A DNA stretch of 64,000 nucleotides, taken from Paenibacillus xylanexedens (GTDB taxonomy: Bacteria > Bacillota > Bacilli > Paenibacillales > Paenibacillaceae). Each line of letters starts with the position of its first letter. Positions within the stretch are counted from its first letter, which is position 1. Below the pieces are notes generated by a model. The model searched no databases. It was given only the letters and a program-made list of their open reading frames with translations, and was not told the DNA's origin. This document shows, in pieces, positions 4,617-57,374 of this stretch. The translations under genes were made by a program, and so were the position numbers. Location: NCBI RefSeq assembly GCF_017874615.1, contig NZ_JAGIKV010000008.1, forward strand, positions 62,001 to 126,000. The letters are read 5' to 3'.

Positions 4617-5681
4617 TTACTGCCGCTGCTCCCCTCTCCTTTCCAAAGGCTGCCATCCATCCACGCCGGACAGAATTAGAGGTACAGTGTACTCGGCCGC
4701 TTCCTGATCGGTCAGTATTTTGGCCCAAGGCACACGATCAGCAGCACTTCCGGCACCAGGCCCGGCGCTGTTATATTCCGTATACTGAACGGTCTGCTCT
4801 GCATCCGTCTTGTTCCAGTTGTGCCATCCCTCCCGCTTCACATGAGCGCCGATCCAGCAGTTCAGAAAACAGACTTTGGCATGATGACGCCACGGTCTGC
4901 CCAGATACACCGACTGCGGCGGAGCATTGCTGGTCAGATCACAGTCCAGAAACACATAGCCGTAACGCACATCCTCCGGCGTAGAGGCTGCGGTAATCCA
5001 ACCGTTCACTTGTCCATCCGCAGCCTCCGCTTCAGTCAGACGATTCTTCGTAAAGATCTCGCAGCCCTTAAACACCACCGTAGCCGAACCAAAAATAAAA
5101 TCGATATCACCTTCGATGTAACAGTCCTCGAAATACTGCCGCAGTTTGCGCCGCTCGGCACCATCGCGTGGCCCGCCAAAATAACTGCGATCCATGGGCT
5201 GCTCCGGCAGCGGGCCGGTGAAGATCGTATCCTGATGGCCCATAAAGCGACAACTGCGGAAGGCCGCGCGGTCTCCATCCACGTACACCGCCAAAGCCTG
5301 ACCCACTACCTTTCCCGGCCCGGCTGAGTTAACAAAAGAAAGTCTCTCTGCTGTAAAATCGTCTGCTCCGATGAAGGCTGTATAGGAATAAAAGGTATGA
5401 TACTGCGACCCATCCGGGAACTTCTTGAGCGCATAATCATCATATGTAATGACAGTATGCTCCGCCCCCTCACCGATCAGATGAATCATAGGCTTCTCAA
5501 TATCCAGCTTCTCGTAATATACGCCTGCCTTAATTCGGATCGTGAAGCTTTCGGTTCCGTTGTCCGGAACGGCATCAATCGCGGCTTGAATGGTAGGATA
5601 ATCCCCCGTCCCATCCAGAGCAACGGTATAATATCGCGTCGATTGATCCATATCTATATTCGGTGACATCTGCTTGCTCAT
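4617..5681 (-). CDS. Pectin methylesterase (CE8), probably intracellular
   Basis: Right-handed beta-helix pectinesterase, 354 residues, which removes methyl esters from galacturonate residues. The N terminus DGTGDYPTIQAAIDAVP is the classic CE8 opening. Catalytic residues appear in GHQDT (D151) and GDIDFIFG (D194), and the substrate Arg/Trp is in YLGRPWR. No signal peptide is present, so it probably acts on short methylated oligosaccharides imported by the neighbouring ABC transporter. Its ATG overlaps the stop of the GH105 gene by 4 bases (5678-5681), so the two are translationally coupled. It is the last gene of the leftward operon. Confidence 0.94.
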   Translation of the reverse strand: MSKQMSPNIDMDQSTRYYTVALDGTGDYPTIQAAIDAVPDNGTESFTIRIKAGVYYEKLDIEKPMIHLIGEGAEHTVITYDDYALKKFPDGSQYHTFYSYTAFIGADDFTAERLSFVNSAGPGKVVGQALAVYVDGDRAAFRSCRFMGHQDTIFTGPLPEQPMDRSYFGGPRDGAERRKLRQYFEDCYIEGDIDFIFGSATVVFKGCEIFTKNRLTEAEAADGQVNGWITAASTPEDVRYGYVFLDCDLTSNAPPQSVYLGRPWRHHAKVCFLNCWIGAHVKREGWHNWNKTDAEQTVQYTEYNSAGPGAGSAADRVPWAKILTDQEAAEYTVPLILSGVDGWQPLERRGEQRQ

Positions 5682-6878: not shown

Positions 6879-7853
6879 TTATTGCCGGCACATTGCCGTT
6901 GAATTGCGAAGGTTCAGCTTGGGCTGAATAACTACCGGAACGTCGACCTGTTCATCACGGATTAACGAGACAATCAGCTCTGCTGCCTGTACGGCCAGTT
7001 CATCCAGAGACGGGCCAATTGTAGTCAAGGCCACTTCGGCATATTGCATATCCGGCAGATCATCATACCCGATTAACGAGATATCGCGTGGAACGCTGTA
7101 ACCTGCCTCAAGCAAAGCCCGTAGTGCACCTCGGGTGACCAGGTTGTTCAGTCCAATAAAAGCTGTCGGCGAATCCGCCCCAAACGCATGATTACGTATG
7201 GCAAAATACCCGTCTTCCCAAGAGGAATGCGCTGGCAGCACATGGTCTTCGTTAAAAGCCAGACCCGTACGCTGCAACGCTTCCCGGTACCCCTCCAGCT
7301 TGACGTGCTGGGAGTTGCCGATGAATCCGATTCGGCTGTGGCCCAGCGATTTCAGATGCTCCACTGCTTTGAACAGCCCTTCTTTGCGATCAATCTTGAT
7401 GTAAGGAGAGTTCGGCGCTTCATCTGTACCCAGCACAAAACATGGCATGTTGAGTGTTGCGAACTTTTTCCAGAACATCTCCCGATTGTCCAGTGCATAG
7501 TCCCACAGAATACATCCGTCCACGCGCAGCTGGCTGAAGACATCCACGCCATCATCCGCCACAACCAGGATCATCTGGTATCCCCGCTTCTTCAGCTCGG
7601 TGTGCAGACGGCCGGAAATGTTCGAGAATAACGGATTGCTCAGCTCATCCAGCACAAAACCGATGATGTTGCTCCTGCCGGTCGAGAGCTGCCGAGCCAA
7701 CATATTTTTCCGATATTGATGTTTCTCCGCGACCGCAAGCACCTTCTGCTTTGTTGCCGGTTTGATCGCGGGATCATCATTCAGCGCCTTCGATACCGTG
7801 CTATAGCTCACCCCCGCCAGTTTGGCAATGTCTTTAATGGTTATCAAAATCAA
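6879..7853 (-). CDS. LacI-family transcriptional regulator of the pectin operon
   Basis: LacI/GalR repressor, 324 residues. The N-terminal helix-turn-helix reads TIKDIAKLAGVSYSTVSKALND, followed by the hinge helix (ARQLSTGRS) and a periplasmic-binding-protein-like effector domain (about 60-320) containing GFIGNS and GYDDLPDMQYAEVALTTIGPS. It is encoded inside the operon it presumably controls, between the binding protein and GH105. The start is a TTG. A second TTG two codons later (7845-7847) is better spaced from GAGAGGTG, so the true protein may begin ITIKDIA. The likely operators are the dyads at 11404 and 11581. Confidence 0.92.
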   Translation of the reverse strand: MILITIKDIAKLAGVSYSTVSKALNDDPAIKPATKQKVLAVAEKHQYRKNMLARQLSTGRSNIIGFVLDELSNPLFSNISGRLHTELKKRGYQMILVVADDGVDVFSQLRVDGCILWDYALDNREMFWKKFATLNMPCFVLGTDEAPNSPYIKIDRKEGLFKAVEHLKSLGHSRIGFIGNSQHVKLEGYREALQRTGLAFNEDHVLPAHSSWEDGYFAIRNHAFGADSPTAFIGLNNLVTRGALRALLEAGYSVPRDISLIGYDDLPDMQYAEVALTTIGPSLDELAVQAAELIVSLIRDEQVDVPVVIQPKLNLRNSTAMCRQ

Positions 7854-7886
7854 TCAACACCTCTCATACGCCTAAAACCCTATTTC

Positions 7887-9482
7887 CTATTTCTGTGCAG
7901 ATTTATAACGATCATATTGTGCCTGTCTGCCCGCAATAACCTGCTCTATATTCATCTTCTTCAACGTCTCAATATAACTGTCAAACTGGTCCAGACTGGC
8001 GTCACCGCTAATAAACTTAAAGTTCATCTCTTCCACATATGTGGTGATGTCAGGCATCGCCATGCTTTCCACACTCGCTTCATCCGGCAGGGCATAGACA
8101 AACGGGAACGGTTCGCGCACATACGGCTCCAGTTCCTTATCCATCTTCGCATGCCAAGGGGCTACGACGGAATCGGCAGAATCGGTGGATTGGATGTTCG
8201 GCAGATTCACCGGACCAATGCCAAGCTTCTGGATGTATTCATTGTCCTTGCCTTTATCCGTGAATGTCTTCACGCCATTCTCTTCCGTATACGTGTCATC
8301 CTTGATGCCCCACGTATAATACGTCTGTGCTTCCTCACTTACGGCATAATCCAGAAAGCGGAAAGCAAGTTCGGGATTTTTACTATCACGTGTAATGCCA
8401 AAGATGCCACTCACTGGTGTACGTCCTACATAGAACTGATCCCCGTGCGGTCCTTTCAGTGGCAAAATGCCTTTGATGATTGGCTCTTCCGGATTGTAAT
8501 CCTTGAACAACGGACTGTAGACCATCGACATATACCAGCTAAAATTAAACGTTGCTCCTGTCACATCCTGAGAGATGCGCGATGTGACCTGATCACTCGT
8601 GGTACTCGCATAATCCACCCCAAGCAGACCTTCCTTGTACAGTCCGTTCAGATAGGTCAAGTACTCCTTATAGGTAGGCTCATAATAGCTGAAATGTACT
8701 TTGCCCTGATCGTCTGCATAGAACTGGTTGGACAGATCAAGTCCAAACGCGGGGCCAAAGGCCATGGACACAAATTTTGCTTCCATGGACAGCGGAATCT
8801 CATCGGCTTTTCCGTTGCCGTTCGGGTCGTCTGTCTTGAACTTGCGCAGCATCGCCGTGAACTCATCCAGCGTGGTAGGCTCGCTTAATCCCAACTTATC
8901 GAGCCAGCGCACATTAACCATAAATACCGGCATATAGTTGCGGGTTAACGTCTGCTGCGGAATATAATACATTTTACCATCTGGCGTCGTTAAACTGGCT
9001 TTAACCGAAGGCGACTTTTCATATATTTTTTTGAGATTCACGCCGTACTTCTCTACCAGTTCATTAATCGGAATGAATAGACCGCTGTTAATGTACTTCA
9101 TCAGCTGATCCTGATCCGGCAGGTACACGATATCGGGCAAGCCGGTACCGGCAGCCAGCCTCGGATTGACGGCATCCGCATAGTTCTGCGGCGGAATCAG
9201 ATCCCAATCCACCGTCACACCGGCGTTGCTCTCAATTTTCTTAACGATGGCTGCGGTGGACAAGTCCACATTGGTCGTCCAAGCGTTGGTGCCGAGAATA
9301 GACAACTTGGCATCCGGTTGATCCGTCACCGGCCCTGCTCCGGTATAATTGAAGGCTGGCTCCGAACTGGACGGGGTGCTCCCCGCATCCGTTCCCGCCC
9401 CTGTTCCGCCGCTACATCCCGCCAGGCTGATTGCCAGTATCGCTGCGATTACACTTTTTCTTCCTGCCCCTTTAAATCTCAT
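7887..9482 (-). CDS. Lipoprotein sugar-binding protein of an ABC importer (YtcQ/LipO type)
   Basis: Large (531-residue) extracellular solute-binding lipoprotein. The signal ends in the lipobox LAGC, followed by a Gly/Ser/Thr-rich tether. The mature part has the NPRLAAGTGLPDIVYL and NGNGKADEIPLS segments typical of the LplA/YtcQ group that binds oligogalacturonides and rhamnogalacturonan fragments. It lies downstream of two permease genes and upstream of the LacI regulator. No ATPase is encoded nearby, as usual for importers served by the shared MsmX ATPase. Confidence 0.93.
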   Translation of the reverse strand: MRFKGAGRKSVIAAILAISLAGCSGGTGAGTDAGSTPSSSEPAFNYTGAGPVTDQPDAKLSILGTNAWTTNVDLSTAAIVKKIESNAGVTVDWDLIPPQNYADAVNPRLAAGTGLPDIVYLPDQDQLMKYINSGLFIPINELVEKYGVNLKKIYEKSPSVKASLTTPDGKMYYIPQQTLTRNYMPVFMVNVRWLDKLGLSEPTTLDEFTAMLRKFKTDDPNGNGKADEIPLSMEAKFVSMAFGPAFGLDLSNQFYADDQGKVHFSYYEPTYKEYLTYLNGLYKEGLLGVDYASTTSDQVTSRISQDVTGATFNFSWYMSMVYSPLFKDYNPEEPIIKGILPLKGPHGDQFYVGRTPVSGIFGITRDSKNPELAFRFLDYAVSEEAQTYYTWGIKDDTYTEENGVKTFTDKGKDNEYIQKLGIGPVNLPNIQSTDSADSVVAPWHAKMDKELEPYVREPFPFVYALPDEASVESMAMPDITTYVEEMNFKFISGDASLDQFDSYIETLKKMNIEQVIAGRQAQYDRYKSAQK

Positions 9483-15814: not shown

Positions 15815-17110
15815 TCAGCCAAAACGCTGCGTTTTGTACCATTTGGTTTCTCTCCGGAATAGCTTATCTCCAATAAGCGAGATAAATGCTTTGACGGATA
15901 TGACCAGAAATAACTGGGCATATGTGAAATAGGAGAGGCAGGCCACAATAAAATTCTGCGTATTGCTTTGCCCAATATCTGCTGATAGTGCGAGATTAAT
16001 TTGTAGTACATAAATGTAGTACATTAATGCCCATGCTATTACGAGATACACGTAAACATCCCCTGAGAACTGGAAGGGAGAAATGACATTCGGATTAAAT
16101 AATGCAATAACCTGATACACTAGATTCGAGACAAAAATAATATCCGATACAATAATAGCGATCATAAACCAGAAATAACTTGCAGCATAGTACAGAACAT
16201 GCAGTTTAATTCTCCAGCTAGTACGGTCAAATAAATGCTTCACATTGTCGATAACAACCTGATAATTTCCCTTGGACCAGCGCTGGCGCTGTTTCATATA
16301 TACCGATAATTGCTCAGGTTCCTGCTGGTAAGCCTCTGCTTGTGGCGCTAATGCAATAAGCTGACCCCGAGTAAGAATATCAAACGACACGGCCGTATCT
16401 TCCGTGATCGCATCAGGGTCCCATCCACCAATCTCACGGATCAGTGCTGCCTTGATAATATAGTTCGTACCAGGAATCGTGCCCAGTTTGAATAACTCCC
16501 ATAGCCCCGTATGGTGAACACGTTGGACCGTTACAAGTTCCAGATTAATGCAACGGGAGAGAAAATTCTGACCCCGATTACGAGCTTTGTTTCGACCAAA
16601 TACAGCACCATACTTCTCCGGGTTTTCCAATGCTTTTTGTGTCAAAAACATCAATGCATTCCGCTCAGGCGCCGCATCTGCGTCATAGATACATATCCAT
16701 TCTCCCCACGCCAGTTCAAGGCCATCATTCAAAGCTCCCGACTTCCCACCTGTACCGGCACGCTCCAGAATGGTAAAGTCACGATCTGCATAACTCGTCT
16801 TGGCCTTGAGTTCCTTCAGGCGCTCTGCTGTATTATCTGTACAATTATCTGCAATAACAATAACTTGAACTTTATGCTCAGGGTAGTTCAGACGCAATAT
16901 ATGCTCAACGGTAGACACGATAACTACCCCTTCATTATGCGCAGGCACCATGACAGTCACAGTGGGGTAATCATCCATACTTTCAGGAATTTGAATTCCC
17001 TTTTTTTCTTGTTTGTTAATGAAACGAATAGCTCCAGCCATAATGACAATCGACTCGGTGACGGATATCCAAATACTGAGGATGGACATCAACAGCAGGA
17101 AATCAGCCAT
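15815..17110 (-). CDS. Family 2 glycosyltransferase, processive exopolysaccharide synthase (YdaM/IcaA-like)
   Basis: Membrane glycosyltransferase, 431 residues, predicted to polymerise an extracellular polysaccharide. One N-terminal helix (about 5-28) precedes the GT2 domain, which has VPAHNE (55-60), DNCTDNT (88-94), DADAAPE (143-149), the TED triad at 236-238 and the processive-synthase motif QRQRW (274-278). Three or four C-terminal helices (about 300-420) form the translocation channel. A GGAGG with 7-nt spacing supports the start. Its first 8 bases overlap the end of a 47-residue membrane-protein gene. The operon resembles B. subtilis ydaJKLMN, whose YdaM is the synthase. Confidence 0.93.
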   Translation of the reverse strand: MADFLLLMSILSIWISVTESIVIMAGAIRFINKQEKKGIQIPESMDDYPTVTVMVPAHNEGVVIVSTVEHILRLNYPEHKVQVIVIADNCTDNTAERLKELKAKTSYADRDFTILERAGTGGKSGALNDGLELAWGEWICIYDADAAPERNALMFLTQKALENPEKYGAVFGRNKARNRGQNFLSRCINLELVTVQRVHHTGLWELFKLGTIPGTNYIIKAALIREIGGWDPDAITEDTAVSFDILTRGQLIALAPQAEAYQQEPEQLSVYMKQRQRWSKGNYQVVIDNVKHLFDRTSWRIKLHVLYYAASYFWFMIAIIVSDIIFVSNLVYQVIALFNPNVISPFQFSGDVYVYLVIAWALMYYIYVLQINLALSADIGQSNTQNFIVACLSYFTYAQLFLVISVKAFISLIGDKLFRRETKWYKTQRFG

Positions 17111-17246
17111 TCAATTTCCTCCGATCATATTTCCTGTTAATTTTCCCTCGAAAACGAAGAGTCGCAAAGGTTAATATAAGAATCGTAATGGCAAAGAAAC
17201 TGCTAACTACAATACATAATGGAACAAACCATGTTAAATAATTCAC
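17103..17246 (-). CDS. Small membrane protein (47 aa) coupled to the exopolysaccharide synthase
   Basis: Short gene found by reading the gap between two operon members. The GTG start (17244-17246) is preceded by GGGGAGGAG with 7-nt spacing. The predicted protein has one hydrophobic helix (about 6-30, rich in V, I, F and L). A basic tail follows (RFRGKINRKYDRRKLNG), which should be cytoplasmic by the positive-inside rule. The TGA overlaps the glycosyltransferase ATG (ATGGCTGA), so synthesis of the two is coupled. I know no named family for it. By position it could be an accessory subunit in the manner of IcaD or other small synthase partners, but it shares no recognisable motif with them. Confidence 0.75.
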   Translation of the reverse strand: MNYLTWFVPLCIVVSSFFAITILILTFATLRFRGKINRKYDRRKLNG

Positions 17247-17270
17247 AGAAATACTCCTCCCCCATAGCAT

Positions 17271-18146
17271 CTAGATGTATTCACCAATGAGATCTGTCTC
17301 TGTGTTCCGTTCCAGTGCCGCAATAACAGCATCGATATCCTCATACTTACTGAATTGTTCCTTCTGGAATACCAGTGCACCCGATCGAATAACCGTCTGC
17401 AACTCATTTCCCTTTTTATCGATGATTTGCAGATCCATCATGGCTTTTTTGATCCGTTGTGTCAGGATGGGCAAGTACTCCACATTGGTCATTGGACAGA
17501 TAATCACAAAACGTCCTCGATCCACAAAAAATTTATAATCCTCAAACCGAATCTGCTTCTGTATGGTAGTGGATAGTTCAAGAAGGAACTGTGCATAACG
17601 TACGGAACCGAGTGATTCCAGTACCAACGGCAAAAACTCGATCTTGAACATCGCCATGCTGAATCCATATTGCTCCGAATAACGTCTGGCTAGATTACTT
17701 TGCTTAACAAGCGTATCCGCAAGTGCATCCTTATTGCCCAGAGAGGTATCCAGATCAATCTCCGGATTACGCTCCTGAAGCTCCTGCAGACGCTCCATGA
17801 CACGCGCATTGCGCACAAGACTTGCCTTGATAAAAGCAGCCACAGCCACATTGGCTGGAATGAGCAGCCACCAAGAGAACGTAAGTACACTTACATCCGC
17901 GTAGGTAACAAGCCATACAAAATAAGAGACCAGATAGATAAATCCGGCGACGACAGATACCCCGACAGGTATCACAAAACCCAGGATCAGCGCTCCAAGT
18001 GACACAATGCTAAACACCACATCCAGTGTAGTATAACTCTGATTCATATAAATCTTAAGATAGACAACGAGCTGCTGGATTACGGCTAATCCAATCAAAC
18101 TCGCATATCCCCATGCAATACGAAGGATGGGTGCTTTATTCCTCAT
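17271..18146 (-). CDS. Membrane protein with degenerate GGDEF domain, probable c-di-GMP receptor (YdaK/PssE-like)
   Basis: 291 residues from the ATG at 18144-18146, which has GGAGAG upstream; a frame to 18221 adds an unlikely leader. About four transmembrane helices occupy the first 105 residues. A GGDEF-fold domain follows, opening with DTSLGNKDALADTL. At the active site GGDEF is replaced by DRGRF, so cyclase activity is not expected. The inhibitory I-site RxxD is intact as RFED, exactly five residues before it, as in true diguanylate cyclases. This is the signature of YdaK-type c-di-GMP receptors that activate exopolysaccharide synthases. The gene lies in the operon immediately before the small membrane protein and glycosyltransferase. 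Confidence 0.9.
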   Translation of the reverse strand: MRNKAPILRIAWGYASLIGLAVIQQLVVYLKIYMNQSYTTLDVVFSIVSLGALILGFVIPVGVSVVAGFIYLVSYFVWLVTYADVSVLTFSWWLLIPANVAVAAFIKASLVRNARVMERLQELQERNPEIDLDTSLGNKDALADTLVKQSNLARRYSEQYGFSMAMFKIEFLPLVLESLGSVRYAQFLLELSTTIQKQIRFEDYKFFVDRGRFVIICPMTNVEYLPILTQRIKKAMMDLQIIDKKGNELQTVIRSGALVFQKEQFSKYEDIDAVIAALERNTETDLIGEYI

Positions 18147-18258
18147 AGGTTTCTTCTCTCCAGTAGATTGGTTAGTGATATTTCGAGTAAACAATATATG
18201 ACATGAATAGACAAACATCATGTTAACACATTGTTGAATATATTAAATGACATTTTTA

Positions 18259-19368
18259 TTACTTTTTAAGTAACTTTTGTAATTCAGTCTCCCCAAGCAA
18301 AGGAAACAGGTTATCAAACATATGTGTGTTTCCACTAAATACATATCCGCCTGGATAACTGGCGTCCAGACTACGCATGCTGATCATATGCTTATACAGC
18401 TGTTTCGCCCATTTTGGATCACCTGACTGAACCGCAAGCAGCATCGCGAGTCCATATACGGATGGAGATTGGTAAGATACCGCAGGTGTGCGAGTACTAC
18501 GCTTATATTGTCCCGGCAGCTGATGACGGGTATTGAATTCTTTTTTCAAAAAAGCAATGAGCTTGTCCGGTTTGCGGCTGGTCGCAGTTAGATGGTTCGC
18601 TACGATCAGCTGATCAATCAGATTCACTGTGTCATCATATGTATACTCTTTCGTCCCCACATTGAATGTTTTCGGATAAAATATCCCGTCATCCGGCATA
18701 CTCTTCAACATGGATTCGTACTTGGCATATGTGCCCGGCTCCAGCATTTCATGCTTCTCCATTAATTGGAGAGACGGTAGATCCACATAAACCAGGCTTA
18801 ACATATCCGCGGAGTAACCATTGCCAAAATCGTGAAAATCAACATAATATCCTTTATTCTGAACCGACTGCGTCAGTGTACGGGAAATATCCGAGGCCGT
18901 TGCCAGTTTGGCTTCTCTTCCCTGTTGCCATTGATCTGCTGCCTTTAATAAGGCACCGACAATTCGGAAATCATCACCGAGCGCGTTGGTGGTCACGTGA
19001 GATTTTCCCTCAGCATCCAGCTTCCAGGCAATATATTTTTGCGGCATGAGGAAATAGGTCGTCAGCAGTTCATAGCTTTCCTCGAATAACGCCTGATCAT
19101 TCTTGGCTACAGCATATTGCATCCAAAGACCAAGTGACTCAGATAAAGCCTCTCTGCCTGCTACGATGTCCGCTTTTTCGGATTTGGCATCCTGCAAATA
19201 GGACGCAAGTAAACCATTGGGATTGGTCATATGATCTTGGACAAAGGATACTGTAGGGGATAATTCATTCATCACGAACCGCTCCTTCATGAAAATAATG
19301 AACGCTGCTGCAATACTGACCACCAATATGACCAACCACGTTACTGTTTTCCGGTTCATTCTCTTCAT
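18259..19368 (-). CDS. Membrane-anchored GH8-like glycosidase of the exopolysaccharide operon (YdaJ-like)
   Basis: 369 residues from the ATG at 19366-19368 (AGGAGG upstream); a frame to 19473 is longer but lacks a ribosome site. An N-terminal basic segment and one helix (about 8-27) anchor the protein, with the rest extracellular. The catalytic region resembles family 8 glycosidases: ALSESLGLWMQYAV, with the putative acid Glu at about 77, followed by AKNDQALFEESYELL. B. subtilis YdaJ and cellulose-operon GH8 enzymes are the closest parallels, and such hydrolases trim or release the nascent polymer. It is the first structural gene after the MarR regulator. Confidence 0.82.
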   Translation of the reverse strand: MKRMNRKTVTWLVILVVSIAAAFIIFMKERFVMNELSPTVSFVQDHMTNPNGLLASYLQDAKSEKADIVAGREALSESLGLWMQYAVAKNDQALFEESYELLTTYFLMPQKYIAWKLDAEGKSHVTTNALGDDFRIVGALLKAADQWQQGREAKLATASDISRTLTQSVQNKGYYVDFHDFGNGYSADMLSLVYVDLPSLQLMEKHEMLEPGTYAKYESMLKSMPDDGIFYPKTFNVGTKEYTYDDTVNLIDQLIVANHLTATSRKPDKLIAFLKKEFNTRHQLPGQYKRSTRTPAVSYQSPSVYGLAMLLAVQSGDPKWAKQLYKHMISMRSLDASYPGGYVFSGNTHMFDNLFPLLGETELQKLLKK

Positions 19369-19469
19369 GATTCCCTCCTGTACTTTTGCTATTGTGAGAT
19401 AATGACTCTGCTCCTTGAGATCGGTTCGGCTAGGGTCTGAGATGTAGGGGTCAAGGATAGAGGTATTGT

Positions 19470-19949
19470 TCATTCTAAGATATCCATGTAGGGTCGCCGT
19501 CCGCCCTTTTTGACAAATTTCCAGTCCACCTCGATATTATGTCGCATTCGGCGGAGAAGCATGACCGCGGTCTCGATCTCTTCCTCCGTCAGACCATCCA
19601 GAGTCACCTGATCCGAATGCACGCCCTCTTTACGAATGAATTCCCATGCTTCAAGCCCAGCTTTGGTGGGATACAACACCTTATTCTTTTTATTACCCAT
19701 TGCTGGCTGTTTAATAATGAACCCATCGGATTCGAGTTTGCTAATAGCTCTGGCCGCCGTTGTGCGATCCACTTTGATCAGTTCAGCAAGCTGATTCGGA
19801 ATAATGCCCGGATTCTCACAGATTCGATACAGATATAGATATTGTCCACGGGACAGGTTCAGATGCTGAAACTCAACATTACTGATTGAATCCAGACAGC
19901 GGGCAATCATACCAATTTCACGCAGCACTTCTTTTTTCTCAGTCAACAC
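19470..19949 (-). CDS. MarR-family transcriptional regulator
   Basis: Winged-helix regulator of about 159 residues. Helix-turn-helix NQLAELIKVDRTTAARAISKLESDGFI and wing KQPAMGNKKNKVLYPTKAGLEAW are typical MarR features. The start is uncertain. I chose the GTG at 19947-19949 because AGGGGCG sits 7 nt upstream; an ATG at 19976 has no ribosome site. It precedes the GH8-like, GGDEF-like and glycosyltransferase genes on the same strand by about 100 bp and may regulate them and itself. The divergent promoter region (19977-20120) contains a GTTAAA/TTTAAC inverted repeat at 20005-20027 that could be its site. Confidence 0.88.
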   Translation of the reverse strand: MLTEKKEVLREIGMIARCLDSISNVEFQHLNLSRGQYLYLYRICENPGIIPNQLAELIKVDRTTAARAISKLESDGFIIKQPAMGNKKNKVLYPTKAGLEAWEFIRKEGVHSDQVTLDGLTEEEIETAVMLLRRMRHNIEVDWKFVKKGGRRPYMDILE

Positions 19950-20120
19950 ACTCACGCCCCTATAAAATTGTTGCATTCACAACATAAATAGTGATATAAC
20001 TACAGTTAAATTGCATTAAATTTTAACCATGATACTCACATGGAACGGCTGCAATGATTATGCTATATACCAGTTTATCACGTCAGGATAACATTACGAT
20101 CACCCAAAGGAGAAACATTC

Positions 20121-53774: not shown

Positions 53775-56700
53775 TTACTTTTGCGCTGCGGCTTCGATAT
53801 CAGCATATGCCCAGTGTGTTGCTGGTACATCACTGAACGTTAGCGTAACTGCGCCAGTTAGGGGTGTCCGGTTGAACAGTACGTTCAACACTTTCACCGC
53901 TTCAGCACGCGTCAGCTTACTATCCGGTTTGAATGTACCATCGTTGTATCCAACCATCAGGCCAGCCGATTGCACGTATGCAATCGCATCTGCTGCCCAC
54001 AGGTCTGCGGATACGTCTGTGAAGGAAACTGCTGGACCATTCACGGTTGTTGCACTCGCTTGTTGCTGCGTCCAGCGATACGCAATCGTTGCCATCTGTG
54101 CACGGGTGATCGAACCTTCCGGTGCAAATTGAGTGTTGCTCATGCCGTTCATGATACCAGCGGATTGAGCCTTTTGAATCTCACTTGTTGCCCAGTGTGT
54201 TGCAGATACATCCTTGTAACTCACGCTATTCCCGGAACCTGCTTTTTCAGTTGGAAGATTGCGAGCCAGCATGGCTGCCATTTGTGCACGTGTTACGAAT
54301 GCGTCTGGACGGAAGTCAGCACCGAAACCTTGGATGTACGGTTGATGTGTACTTTGTGAAGCTTTCAGTCCATCCACAACAACGAGGGTGAACGTACTGA
54401 ATTTCGTTACAACAAACTCAATGCCTTCGCTGTTATCCGCGAGTTGCACCAATTTGCCTTGAATCAATTCTTTTGTGCCGTCACTGTGTTCGATATAGAT
54501 CGCCAGGTTGTCCAATGCTTGCTGACGAGCAGCCGGATCAGTTGGCAGACTGTCACGCAGTGGCAACGTGAGTGTCACTTCGCGGCTCTGCATATTCGTG
54601 TCGATCTCTACCGGACGAGCCAGCACGCGTACATTCGTGTTTGGAGCAACCTGTTGAATCAATTGCTCTTTCTTCGCACGTTCTTCCACTTCTTTGCGTT
54701 CGGATTCCTTTTTCAGTGGAACCACACGGAAGTATAAGTCTTGATCGAATCCGGCGATGGAATTCGTCGGAACGGAAATCACTACATTTTCAGTGGAAAT
54801 CTCCAGCTTAAGCGAACCATCATTCAATTCTTTCACCGCTGCCTTTGGCAGTTCAATACGTGTCTCGGACACGGAATCTTTGGTGTCTGGGATGACAATG
54901 CGTGCGGTGTTCATGTTCAATTGCTTCGCTTTTTCAACAGATTCCTTGGCAATCGCTTCGGTCATTTTCACCAGGTCTTTGATCGTGCCGTTGGTTTCGG
55001 TTGTACGGGTAATCGGCGTTTTGGTCAGGTTCGTGCCGTTTGTTCCATTAACGTCAACCACGATCTGCTCTTGTTTCGTTGTTGGTGCAGGTGTAGACGT
55101 TACAGGCGTAGTCGTAGATGATCCGCCACCACCACCTGTGTTTCCACCCGGGTTAGGCGTTGGAGTATTGCCATTATCTGTGCTGCTATCACCATTTTGT
55201 GTAAAGACAAACTTCACAGCGCGGCCTGGCAGTTCATCGCTGATTGCTTTGCAACGAACCCATACCGTTTTGTTGCCGCTAAGGTCCATTTTTTGAATGA
55301 AGGCAACATCAATCCAGTGCAGCTTATTGTCAAAGGATATCTCCATCGTGCTGTCCAAGCCCGTTAGGGTGTTATTAATGTCATTACCCTTCACATTAGG
55401 AGCCGTAAAGAATCGATTAAATACATATTGCAGATTCCCAACATCCTCATAGCTGTCTTGTTCATTTAGGACCCATTCAGCCAATTCCTTCTGGCCTTCA
55501 GTACTGAGTTCTGCCCTTTTGGATAAATCAAGAGCGCCTCTAAGATTAAATTTGTATTTGCTGAAGAATGCTTCACCTTTACTCTGATCTTTCATTGCTT
55601 TATCAAGCCATTGATCCATTCGCGGTATAGAAGTAGCTTGCTCAAATGAATCGATAGGCATAGAGAGGAGATTCAGGACAATATCAGGATCAACAATATC
55701 CCCTTTAGACACTCCTTCCAACCTTTCGAATGCAACTAGATGCAAGTAATTATATGCCAGTACACCTTTATCTACTTTGCTACGTTCCAAATGTTGTTGT
55801 CCAAGGCTGCGTAGCACATAGGTCTGTTGGTCATTAAAGTGATTAGGTCCATTTACTAGTTGCTGAGCGAGCAGATCCAGCTTATTCCTAAGAACATTGA
55901 GTTCCCTCTGCTCCCAAACAGATTGTGCCAATACACCAAGTTCAATCATATATTGGACCTGTTCTTTATTTTTGTAATCTTTATTTACATATTCAATCAA
56001 GAATCCCGCAATGAAATCTCTAACCTGCAAAGACAAGGCACCGTATCCGTTAGGAAGAGTGATACCCAGCTCTGGATCTTCCATAGCCATTCGCATTGCT
56101 TCGATATTACTGTTGCTCTTTGCAGTATTTAAGACAGTCAATGGATCGCTTTCGTTATCATCAGGGAAAAATTTATTAAATGCAGTCTGGATTTCTTCAA
56201 AACTTGTATATCCTTCATCCGGTCTTTCACTAAGCATAAGATCAGCCAATTGCTCCTGCTCTTCGGATGAGAGGTTTTCCCATTTGCTGATATCCAAAGG
56301 GAAACTTCCAAGTGGTTTTTCTTGGTTTTCTTCTTTGGAGTTATACGATTCTATACCTTCTTGAATTTCAAACATCTCATCTAATACTTTCATCATATCT
56401 TCTGACGATACTACCTTATTTATAAAAGGAGTATCACTTACTACTGAATCCCTATAACCCAGAATCTTCTTAATGGAAGGGTTACCTATGATTTTACGCT
56501 CATATATATAAGCAGTCATACGTTTTTCAATATCTGAAGAGTTGAGATACAGATCAATACGTTCATAGTATCCCTCTTCGACACTAGGATAATCAAAATG
56601 CAGTTTCCGCTCTGCTAGCTTTCCATAAAATTCATCAAGGACTATTCTGGAGTCTGATCCTCCAATTTTACGGGGAAGTTCCAGAGCTTGCAGAGCCAAC

Positions 56701-57374
56701 TGCACCAGATATTGAACTTGTCCCTTATTCTGATATCCATCGCTAGTTGGTGGATCGAGACTCAGTACATGTGCTGCGAGTTCAATCTGATCGCCTTCAG
56801 ATAACGAATTAAAATCAGGATCGGTTATGAATTGTTTATTACGAAAAAGGTCTATAACTTCCTGTTTAAAGTCAGAAGTATCGCCCTGCTTTATCTTTTT
56901 TTTGATTTCGTTAAACTGATCCAATTCACTCAGCTGTGTGCTAGGGTTAAAAGATTGCATCTTGTATGCAGTTTCCAACCCATTTTTATCTACAACCATT
57001 ACATTATAATAGTACGTTTCGGTGTTGCTTAAACCCGTGATTTTTTTAGAGAATGTGCCGTCCGGAGACTCTGAACCCAACACCCACTCCTCATCTCCAT
57101 ACTCAAGTTTTTCTCTAATTTCTTGCATGTTGTTCAGGTCGGCAACACCGGAAACGAAGACCTGGTATTTTAATTCATAGGATGGAGTAGAATCAGAGCC
57201 AGCATACCTCCAATGTACTTCAACGTTATGATCTTCCGTCCGCTTGATTGTGATTAGGCCATCATTTCCTGGTACAGGAAATGATGCTCCGGCACTAACC
57301 TTCCCTGCTGGTGCCAACCATGGAGCTACTAACACCATAATGAGCATCAAACTAATTATTTTTCTGTAATTCAT
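53775..57374 (-). CDS. Large SLH-domain cell-surface protein with helical repeats
   Basis: 1199 residues. A signal peptide (about 1-29) is followed by an Fn3-like region (about 35-145). A long helical part (about 150-690) contains four degenerate repeats of the form LSxxxQxxLAxxVL...GYxxxxxVQ (around 187, 365, 442 and 640). Then come a low-complexity Pro/Gly/Ser/Thr linker (about 738-765), a beta-rich domain with DSLPTDPAARQQALDNLAIYIEHSDG, and three C-terminal SLH domains (about 1025-1199: FVTRAQMAAMLAR, SITRAQMATIAYRW, KLTRAEAVKVLNVLF). The SLH domains bind pyruvylated wall polymer, so the protein is surface-anchored. GGGAGG precedes the ATG. The function of the helical region is unknown. 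Confidence 0.92.
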   Translation of the reverse strand: MNYRKIISLMLIMVLVAPWLAPAGKVSAGASFPVPGNDGLITIKRTEDHNVEVHWRYAGSDSTPSYELKYQVFVSGVADLNNMQEIREKLEYGDEEWVLGSESPDGTFSKKITGLSNTETYYYNVMVVDKNGLETAYKMQSFNPSTQLSELDQFNEIKKKIKQGDTSDFKQEVIDLFRNKQFITDPDFNSLSEGDQIELAAHVLSLDPPTSDGYQNKGQVQYLVQLALQALELPRKIGGSDSRIVLDEFYGKLAERKLHFDYPSVEEGYYERIDLYLNSSDIEKRMTAYIYERKIIGNPSIKKILGYRDSVVSDTPFINKVVSSEDMMKVLDEMFEIQEGIESYNSKEENQEKPLGSFPLDISKWENLSSEEQEQLADLMLSERPDEGYTSFEEIQTAFNKFFPDDNESDPLTVLNTAKSNSNIEAMRMAMEDPELGITLPNGYGALSLQVRDFIAGFLIEYVNKDYKNKEQVQYMIELGVLAQSVWEQRELNVLRNKLDLLAQQLVNGPNHFNDQQTYVLRSLGQQHLERSKVDKGVLAYNYLHLVAFERLEGVSKGDIVDPDIVLNLLSMPIDSFEQATSIPRMDQWLDKAMKDQSKGEAFFSKYKFNLRGALDLSKRAELSTEGQKELAEWVLNEQDSYEDVGNLQYVFNRFFTAPNVKGNDINNTLTGLDSTMEISFDNKLHWIDVAFIQKMDLSGNKTVWVRCKAISDELPGRAVKFVFTQNGDSSTDNGNTPTPNPGGNTGGGGGSSTTTPVTSTPAPTTKQEQIVVDVNGTNGTNLTKTPITRTTETNGTIKDLVKMTEAIAKESVEKAKQLNMNTARIVIPDTKDSVSETRIELPKAAVKELNDGSLKLEISTENVVISVPTNSIAGFDQDLYFRVVPLKKESERKEVEERAKKEQLIQQVAPNTNVRVLARPVEIDTNMQSREVTLTLPLRDSLPTDPAARQQALDNLAIYIEHSDGTKELIQGKLVQLADNSEGIEFVVTKFSTFTLVVVDGLKASQSTHQPYIQGFGADFRPDAFVTRAQMAAMLARNLPTEKAGSGNSVSYKDVSATHWATSEIQKAQSAGIMNGMSNTQFAPEGSITRAQMATIAYRWTQQQASATTVNGPAVSFTDVSADLWAADAIAYVQSAGLMVGYNDGTFKPDSKLTRAEAVKVLNVLFNRTPLTGAVTLTFSDVPATHWAYADIEAAAQK

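Follow-up and report, generated by a model that had tools for sequence, protein, structure and literature searches.

A probable compact exopolysaccharide synthase locus of Paenibacillus xylanexedens with a degenerate GGDEF receptor and a conserved 47-residue membrane partner

A gene cluster encoding a MarR-family regulator, a hydrolase resembling glycoside hydrolase family 8 (GH8), a degenerate GGDEF protein, a 47-amino-acid (aa) membrane protein and a family 2 glycosyltransferase (GT2) lies in a 64,000-nucleotide stretch of Paenibacillus xylanexedens (contig NZ_JAGIKV010000008.1, positions 62,001 to 126,000; hereafter the window). Judging from sequence, structure models and analogy, the cluster is probably a compact synthase operon, gated by cyclic di-GMP (c-di-GMP), that exports its own exopolysaccharide (EPS). 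It resembles a known machine but seems to be a separate, widely distributed form of it that lacks two large helper proteins and has an overlooked 47-residue protein instead. The core of the locus is the receptor, the 47-aa protein and the GT2 (the trio). This interpretation is based on the constancy of the trio, the I-site and GGDEF fold of the receptor, the motifs and fold of the GT2, the GT2 tree, gene co-occurrence, the lack of BcsB and DUF2334 matches in the genome, and the precedents of YdaK, PssE and PgaCD.

In the mechanism we propose, the GT2 would polymerize a nucleotide sugar and extrude the polymer by a membrane channel of its own, and a bacterium with one membrane would require no exporter beyond it. 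The membrane-bound GGDEF protein would not synthesize c-di-GMP but would bind it at its I-site. Its state would be relayed to the GT2 via a conserved C-terminal tail and the 47-aa protein, an obligate third subunit whose role would be comparable to that of PgaD/IcaD or the BcsB membrane anchor. A sticky sugar polymer would be made when c-di-GMP rises. The GH8-like enzyme, which would be dispensable, may trim or release the polymer outside, and the MarR protein may act as a local transcription switch.

The distribution of the genes was evaluated in the taxonomic family of the window's genome (hereafter the family). Homologues of the receptor were found in 97 of 394 family genomes and those of the GT2 (E ≤ 1e-130) in 97 of 388; the two samples differ slightly and 96 genomes are common to both lists. 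From 97 genomes, we read 70 loci (hereafter family loci), comprising the 30 best matches and 40 regions picked for diversity. The receptor occurred in 70/70, the small protein in 68/70 and the GT2 in 68/70, with all three together in 68/70. Both exceptions (L070 and L071) are paralogues in which a GGDEF gene stands by a GH8 gene without the small gene or a GT2. Other neighboring open reading frames (ORFs) of at least 90 aa each recurred in at most 12 of the 40 longer family loci. The synteny search that the original prediction had suggested thus yielded a constant trio, which was also found in Streptococcus, Lactobacillaceae, Lactococcus and Enterococcus.

The receptor carries the motif RFED, the five residues YKFFV and then DRGRF, exactly as first described from the sequence. 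The R and D of the I-site were retained in 70/70 family loci, down to 39% identity, and the D and E of GGDEF were substituted in all 70. In a 34-row receptor alignment with a mean column identity of 63%, the I-site R and D were two of 22 invariant columns. Loss of RxxD in close relatives, named beforehand as an observation that would speak against a receptor, was not seen. A structure model of middling confidence (mean pLDDT 74.4, pTM 0.51) contained four N-terminal helices followed by a GGDEF fold; residues 131-289 matched GGDEF domains, with 5llx at Z 19.6 and rmsd 2.1 (148 residues), and c-di-GMP complexes such as 6zxm and 4zmm were among the fold matches. A phmmer search of the receptor against the PDB gave no match at 0.01. 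Based on Pfam, the model and the sequence, the protein has the architecture of YdaK and PssE: N-terminal helices, a degenerate GGDEF domain and an intact I-site. YdaK is reported to have four membrane helices and an RxxD five residues before SDERI (PMC5422440, PMC7064775), and its R202A and D205A substitutions each abolish EPS (PMC5422440). PssE is reported to bind c-di-GMP with a Kd of 0.79 μM and to be essential for EPS (PMC4125290). The 7.0-Mb genome contains 15 GGDEF matches, one being the locus receptor, and three EAL matches.

The receptor of the window ends in ETDLIGEYI. The corresponding pattern, ExD[LIV]xxE[YF] near the C-terminus, was present in 67/70 family receptors and in 71/79 trio receptors from other groups (see below), and in 0/24 receptors of BcsB-type loci. 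The eight without it among the 79 resemble near-forms of the pattern. In the family, the exceptions were the two paralogues that lack the small gene and GT2, and L034, whose frame is broken. In this last copy, from genome G133, the receptor and the GT2 are each divided over two frames. The occurrence of the motif with the trio, and its absence from the two paralogues, was counted in favor of c-di-GMP gating through a three-part complex; we infer that the tail may contact the GT2 or the small protein.

The GT2 contains the motifs of processive enzymes: D88, D92, DAD, the ED of TED, and QRxRW. In 54 sequences, D88, D92, D143-A-D145, E237-D238, Q274-R275 and R277 were invariant and W278 nearly so. 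The protein has long helices, one at the N-terminus and several at the C-terminus. Its AlphaFold model (pLDDT 89.9) gave hyaluronan synthase and BcsA as top fold matches. Both of these enzymes extrude their own polymer. Based on this similarity, a separate exporter is probably not needed in a single-membrane cell.

With respect to the polymer, the top NCBIfam match of the GT2 was PgaC_IcaA (TIGR03937) at 163.5 bits, a result that raises the prospect of an ica/pga-like synthase producing poly-N-acetylglucosamine (PNAG). We consider this quite improbable: the score is far under the curated cut-off of 422.3, the 47-aa protein matched neither the PgaD nor the IcaD model of Pfam or NCBIfam, and the polymer of the related yda system is reported to contain alpha-D-Gal and/or GalNAc residues (PMC13274460). 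The cellulose synthase model TIGR03030 scored 96.9 bits versus a cut-off of 699.1, and Pfam detected no PilZ match in the GT2 protein at E ≤ 1. Lacking a CelA-level score and a BcsB partner, the GT2 does not appear to be a cellulose synthase of the BcsA-BcsB type.

By eye, the 47-aa protein has a single hydrophobic stretch and ends in a basic tail. Its ORF begins with GTG downstream of a GGAGG-like site, likewise noted by eye, and its end shares 8 nt with the start of the GT2 gene. No Pfam family matched above cut-off, the one weak match being LapA_dom (15 bits versus 28). Across the family, the protein is 44-48 aa in length and is encoded between the receptor and the GT2, with the 8-nt stop/start overlap in 60 of the 68 loci; W6, F7, R33 and R42 were invariant in 36 rows. 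Comparison of 23 relatives with the window copy revealed 243, 89 and 466 changes at codon positions 1, 2 and 3, respectively, and 289 synonymous and 267 non-synonymous codons. This pattern fits a coding gene under constraint. The original prediction had entered the gene simply as a small membrane protein; it is indeed there, and is the constant partner of the GT2.

The earlier description also held that no YdaL- or YdaN-like gene is visible, and proposed looking for BcsB/YdaN homologues elsewhere in the genome. This absence extends from the window to the whole genome, in which BcsB (PF03170) and DUF2334 (PF10096) each had 0 matches. As both models detect their B. subtilis controls and the assembly has a listed completeness of 100%, the absence of YdaN- and YdaL-type proteins is likely real. 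The locus had been viewed as a reduced ydaJKLMN whose export and modification factors were still to be found. Of this view, the predicted c-di-GMP receptor stands, in keeping with its YdaK/PssE-type architecture, its linkage to a processive-type GT2, and the GGDEF and EAL complement of the genome. The idea of a mere remnant does not, as the GT2 belongs to a separate lineage with a constant 47-aa partner.

The evidence for this lineage is a tree of 60 GT2 sequences (FastTree, unrooted, no outgroup), in which a single branch with support 100 divides 36 sequences that have the small partner from 24 that have a BcsB partner. An earlier quick tree of 73 GT2s, made with the search unfinished, agrees with the two-lineage split once the label of L141 is corrected. 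In the BcsB-type loci (L091-L094, L150-L169), the GT2 occurs with GH8, a receptor and BcsB in yda or pss order, together with a DUF2334-type protein where a single-sequence model or position shows one. At the level of whole genomes, BcsB was found in 39 of 348 class genomes, and these include none of the 17 that matched the small-protein profile strongly. This exclusion is not significant alone at that base rate, and the separation therefore rests on the GT2 tree.

How the small protein arose is a distinct question, and one answer is compatible with the mechanism above: the protein would be a shrunken C-terminal anchor of YdaL (DUF2334), the operon having arisen when ydaJKLMN lost YdaN and the ectodomain of YdaL. 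The small gene shares the position of ydaL directly before the GT2 (ydaM), and an 8-nt overlap is possible in 12/18 yda-type loci, with the start picked among candidates. With YdaL tails the small-protein profile reached a score of 20.8, more than any of 49 control membrane windows (highest 16.6), and an HMM of YdaL tails placed true small ORFs at eight of the top 10 positions among 8969 short ORFs. Other results weigh against this origin. The best single E was 0.019, and hhalign assigned a probability of 35%; yda-type BcsB tails scored nearly equally (19.7), with six of the top 10 in the corresponding scan, which thus fails to tell YdaL and BcsB tails apart, and the highest-scoring control window was itself a BcsB tail. 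Moreover, pss-type DUF2334 tails scored poorly and lack the 8-nt overlap, and membrane stretches with basic tails look alike. Homology to YdaL or BcsB anchors is thus suggestive, not decisive. In a sample of the phylum, 26 genomes had a GT2 match; six carry the trio, all of the window's class, and 14/14 of the other GT2 loci read have BcsB (20 of 26 read). Confinement of the trio to the class, with BcsB elsewhere, leans towards the trio being the derived state, but the GT2 trees are unrooted and have no outgroup. Overall, descent from the YdaL anchor is plausible but somewhat doubtful.

Occurrence of the trio beyond the family was investigated using the small-protein profile, which was searched against 348 genomes of the class. 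Strong matches (E < 1e-23) were obtained in 17, one of which is outside the family (G597). Among weaker matches, five 2-Mb genomes (L138-L142) and G655 (L136) have a GGDEF-like gene, a small ORF and a GT2 adjoining. In L138 (genome G474), the GT2 is broken into two ORFs. Nine other weak matches (L135, L137, L143-L149), in loci with no GT2, were taken as chance. Alignment of the family and non-family trio groups using hhalign related the small proteins (97%, E 1.5e-10) and the receptors (99.6%, E 6e-24).

Named genomes were scanned using a GT2 alignment whose first row came from L140, and the best 80 of 195 relatives were kept. These 80 include Streptococcus (parasanguinis, sanguinis, oralis and others), Lactococcus, Enterococcus, Vagococcus, Weissella, Leuconostoc, Lactobacillus, Limosilactobacillus, Ligilactobacillus, Liquorilactobacillus, Companilactobacillus and Lactiplantibacillus, as well as two records titled Bifidobacterium. 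The gene order was receptor, small gene, GT2, GH8. Profiles detected the small protein in 70/80 loci, with a short hydrophobic ORF in that position in the other 10, the receptor in 64/80 and GH8 in 61/80; 79/80 yielded an alignable receptor-like ORF (none in L207; two partial). BcsB and DUF2334 were each found in 0 of the 80 loci, with flanks of up to 4 kb. The 8-nt overlap is possible at 40/70 small-GT2 junctions in lactic acid bacteria.

Several observations weigh against c-di-GMP gating of a self-sufficient synthase. First, the canonical RxxD was present in 0/79 receptors of the named scan; in 47/79 the R lies one residue further out and a D or E is retained. As the canonical motif is missing in all 79, it would be unsafe to extend c-di-GMP control to the system as a whole. 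Second, 30 of 49 host genomes searched had no GGDEF match at E ≤ 0.001, and in G770 and G771 the sole match was the trio receptor itself. In a second sample, 7/8 genomes had neither GGDEF nor EAL matches (six with a trio that was read, and G541 with a weak small-protein match only); the two samples overlap and some records are of the same strain. The lack of a canonical I-site in other genera, and of any GGDEF match in most of the host genomes, indicates a role of the receptor that is independent of c-di-GMP and that may partly hold for the locus of the window. Third, the proposed docking tail is of low confidence in the receptor model (pLDDT 35 in the last block). Finally, ydaL, ydaM and ydaN are reported to be essential for EPS in B. 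subtilis (PMC13274460), such that a functional system without YdaL and YdaN is an extrapolation.

Taken furthest, these data would make the degenerate GGDEF protein a structural or assembly subunit deaf to c-di-GMP, with MarR-dependent transcription alone setting the output and the I-site a relic. The retention of a receptor-like ORF despite loss of RxxD, the scarcity of GGDEF proteins in the hosts, and a C-terminal tail more widely retained than the I-site are all consistent with this. However, a relic I-site would be expected to drift, and in the family both residues are kept even in distant copies; the window's genome has 14 further GGDEF matches in addition to the three EAL matches; and G597, the only non-family trio genome examined with an intact I-site, has 13 GGDEF matches including the trio receptor. 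For the family, a purely structural role is thus unlikely, and gating by c-di-GMP remains our preferred interpretation.

Loss of the I-site following loss of cyclases within lactic acid bacteria was also considered and not upheld, as hosts with several GGDEF matches lack the arginine: Companilactobacillus and Lactiplantibacillus hosts (L246-L249) have five to nine, including the trio receptor, and no I-site arginine. The number of GGDEF matches is one or two in several Liquorilactobacillus hosts. For streptococci, a c-di-GMP module that includes a cellulose synthase-like protein has been described, but with other genes (PMC10333796); the single strong GGDEF match (E 9e-34) of G737, a streptococcal trio host (L178), is possibly this module, transferred.

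A broader formulation, which we offer tentatively and at slightly less than even confidence, is that of a Bacilli-wide synthase class with three obligate subunits: the GT2, a single-pass protein of ~45-55 residues, and a pseudo-GGDEF protein docking by its ETDLxxEY tail. The pseudo-GGDEF subunit would be a c-di-GMP switch in soil lineages; streptococci and lactic acid bacteria would have lost its ligand site and kept the subunit.

The features of the locus are summarized in the table. ORFs and Pfam matches bear out the predicted order of MarR, GH8-like, degenerate GGDEF, small ORF and GT2. The span originally given, 17103-19949, does not cover the GT2 (15815-17110). The longest ORF of the receptor begins at 18221; the ATG at 18146 agrees better with relatives. 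Promoter and terminator scans of the locus gave signals at about the level of shuffled sequence.

Table. Features of the synthase locus (window coordinates).
Feature	Position	Strand	Basis
MarR-family regulator	19470..19976	-	PF01047, 41.4 bits (Pfam)
GH8-like hydrolase	18259..19473	-	PF01270, 29.2 bits versus cut-off 24
Degenerate GGDEF receptor, 291 aa from likely start	17271..18146	-	PF00990, 31.6 bits versus cut-off 23.8
47-aa single-pass membrane protein	17103..17246	-	Conservation in family loci; codon-change pattern
GT2 synthase, 431 aa	15815..17110	-	Glyco_tranf_2_3, 96.9 bits versus cut-off 27
I-site RFED codons (R200-D203 of the 291-aa receptor)	17538..17549	-	Sequence; conservation
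Degenerate active site DRGRF (receptor residues 209-213)	17508..17522	-	Sequence; conservation
Receptor C-terminal tail ETDLIGEYI (residues 283-291), candidate docking element	17274..17300	-	ExD[LIV]xxE[YF] motif counts

The GH8-like protein is related to PDB chains 3ren and 6r2m (phmmer E 5e-25 and 2e-20, respectively), with which its LSES and DDFRI stretches align; we take these to cover the E and the first D of the GH8 active site. The aligned residues and a Pfam score over the cut-off support membership of the GH8 family. A hydrophobic stretch is visible by eye at the N-terminus. GH8 is present in 55/70 family loci. Two genomes, G095 and G101, have a second GGDEF receptor, 39% identical to that of the window, beside GH8 and without the small gene or GT2 (L070 and L071, ~7000-8860), while their complete trio loci (L072 and L053) show no GH8. 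In these genomes, GH8 may act in trans. The glycosidase of the Listeria pss system is PssZ. The MarR and GH8-like genes overlap by 4 nt. MarR was found in 32/70 family loci, namely the 30 closest, which are partly cut by locus ends, and two of the 40 others; in close relatives it is the first gene of the cluster.

Elsewhere in the window are a GH18 chitinase with two fn3 stretches and a CBM5/12 (573-2672), a pectinesterase gene near a gene for an extracellular solute-binding protein (4617-5681 and 7887-9482), and a protein of 1199 aa whose C-terminus carries S-layer homology domains, its only Pfam matches at 1e-5 (53775-57374).

Among characterized systems, the closest resemblance is to Bacillus ydaJKLMN and Listeria pssA-E, in which a GT2, an I-site receptor and GH8 are likewise linked in one cluster. 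The window shares with ydaJKLMN the GH8, the degenerate four-helix GGDEF receptor with RxxD five residues upstream, and the GT2 (PMC5422440, PMC7064775), as well as a possible 8-nt overlap at the gene preceding the GT2 in yda-type loci. It differs in having the 47-aa protein in place of YdaL and YdaN, in the lineage of its GT2, and in the tail of its receptor. The counterparts in Listeria are PssE, the GT2 PssC and a GH8-like enzyme, with PssC described as resembling PNAG synthases and cellulose synthases to about the same degree (PMC4125290). A complete pss-type operon is present in three family genomes in which the window's receptor has no match (L091, 6850-15442; L151; L165), and runs GH8, a membrane protein, DUF2334, GT2, BcsB and PssE; the window's genome has no match to DUF2334 or BcsB. 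By sequence, then, the locus is of the Yda/Pss kind in the sense of how it would work, yet it is not a member of ydaJKLMN, because the two defining genes, for the BcsB-like YdaN/PssD and for the DUF2334 protein (YdaL and the corresponding pss protein), were looked for without a match.

The likeness to E. coli PgaCD and staphylococcal IcaAD is one of function only: a GT2 that needs a small membrane partner (PMC8461298, PMC7112194), as PgaC depends on PgaD (PMC8461298). Unlike these, the window's partner has 47 aa, one hydrophobic stretch and no PgaD/IcaD match, the GT2 scores under the PgaC_IcaA cut-off, and there is a dedicated GGDEF receptor. The gts system of Lactobacillus acidophilus (GtsA, the GT2 GtsB, and PdeB), compared by description only, similarly has an upstream membrane protein in which no domain is recognized and a link to c-di-GMP, but GtsA is described with two membrane spans and the reported receptor is a degenerate EAL protein (PMC6123363). 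L. gallinarum (L220) carries the trio and GH8. In the literature searched (titles and abstracts, with subscription papers outside the scope), we met no account of the trio.

The suggested stand-in for the missing parts is a microprotein short enough to escape annotation and without a Pfam family above cut-off. The trio may be the smallest synthase set for asking how c-di-GMP reaches a GT2 that lacks PilZ, and may also serve to ask what BcsB does beyond chain guidance. Because the I-site is present in some natural variants and absent from others, the regulatory step can be tested directly. The trio is also present in common oral, gut and food bacteria, where Pfam largely misses the GGDEF domain of the receptor (of three tested, two had no GGDEF match and the third was sub-threshold). 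If the broader formulation is correct, a second-messenger receptor would have been turned into a fixed part of an enzyme in lactic acid bacteria and streptococci.

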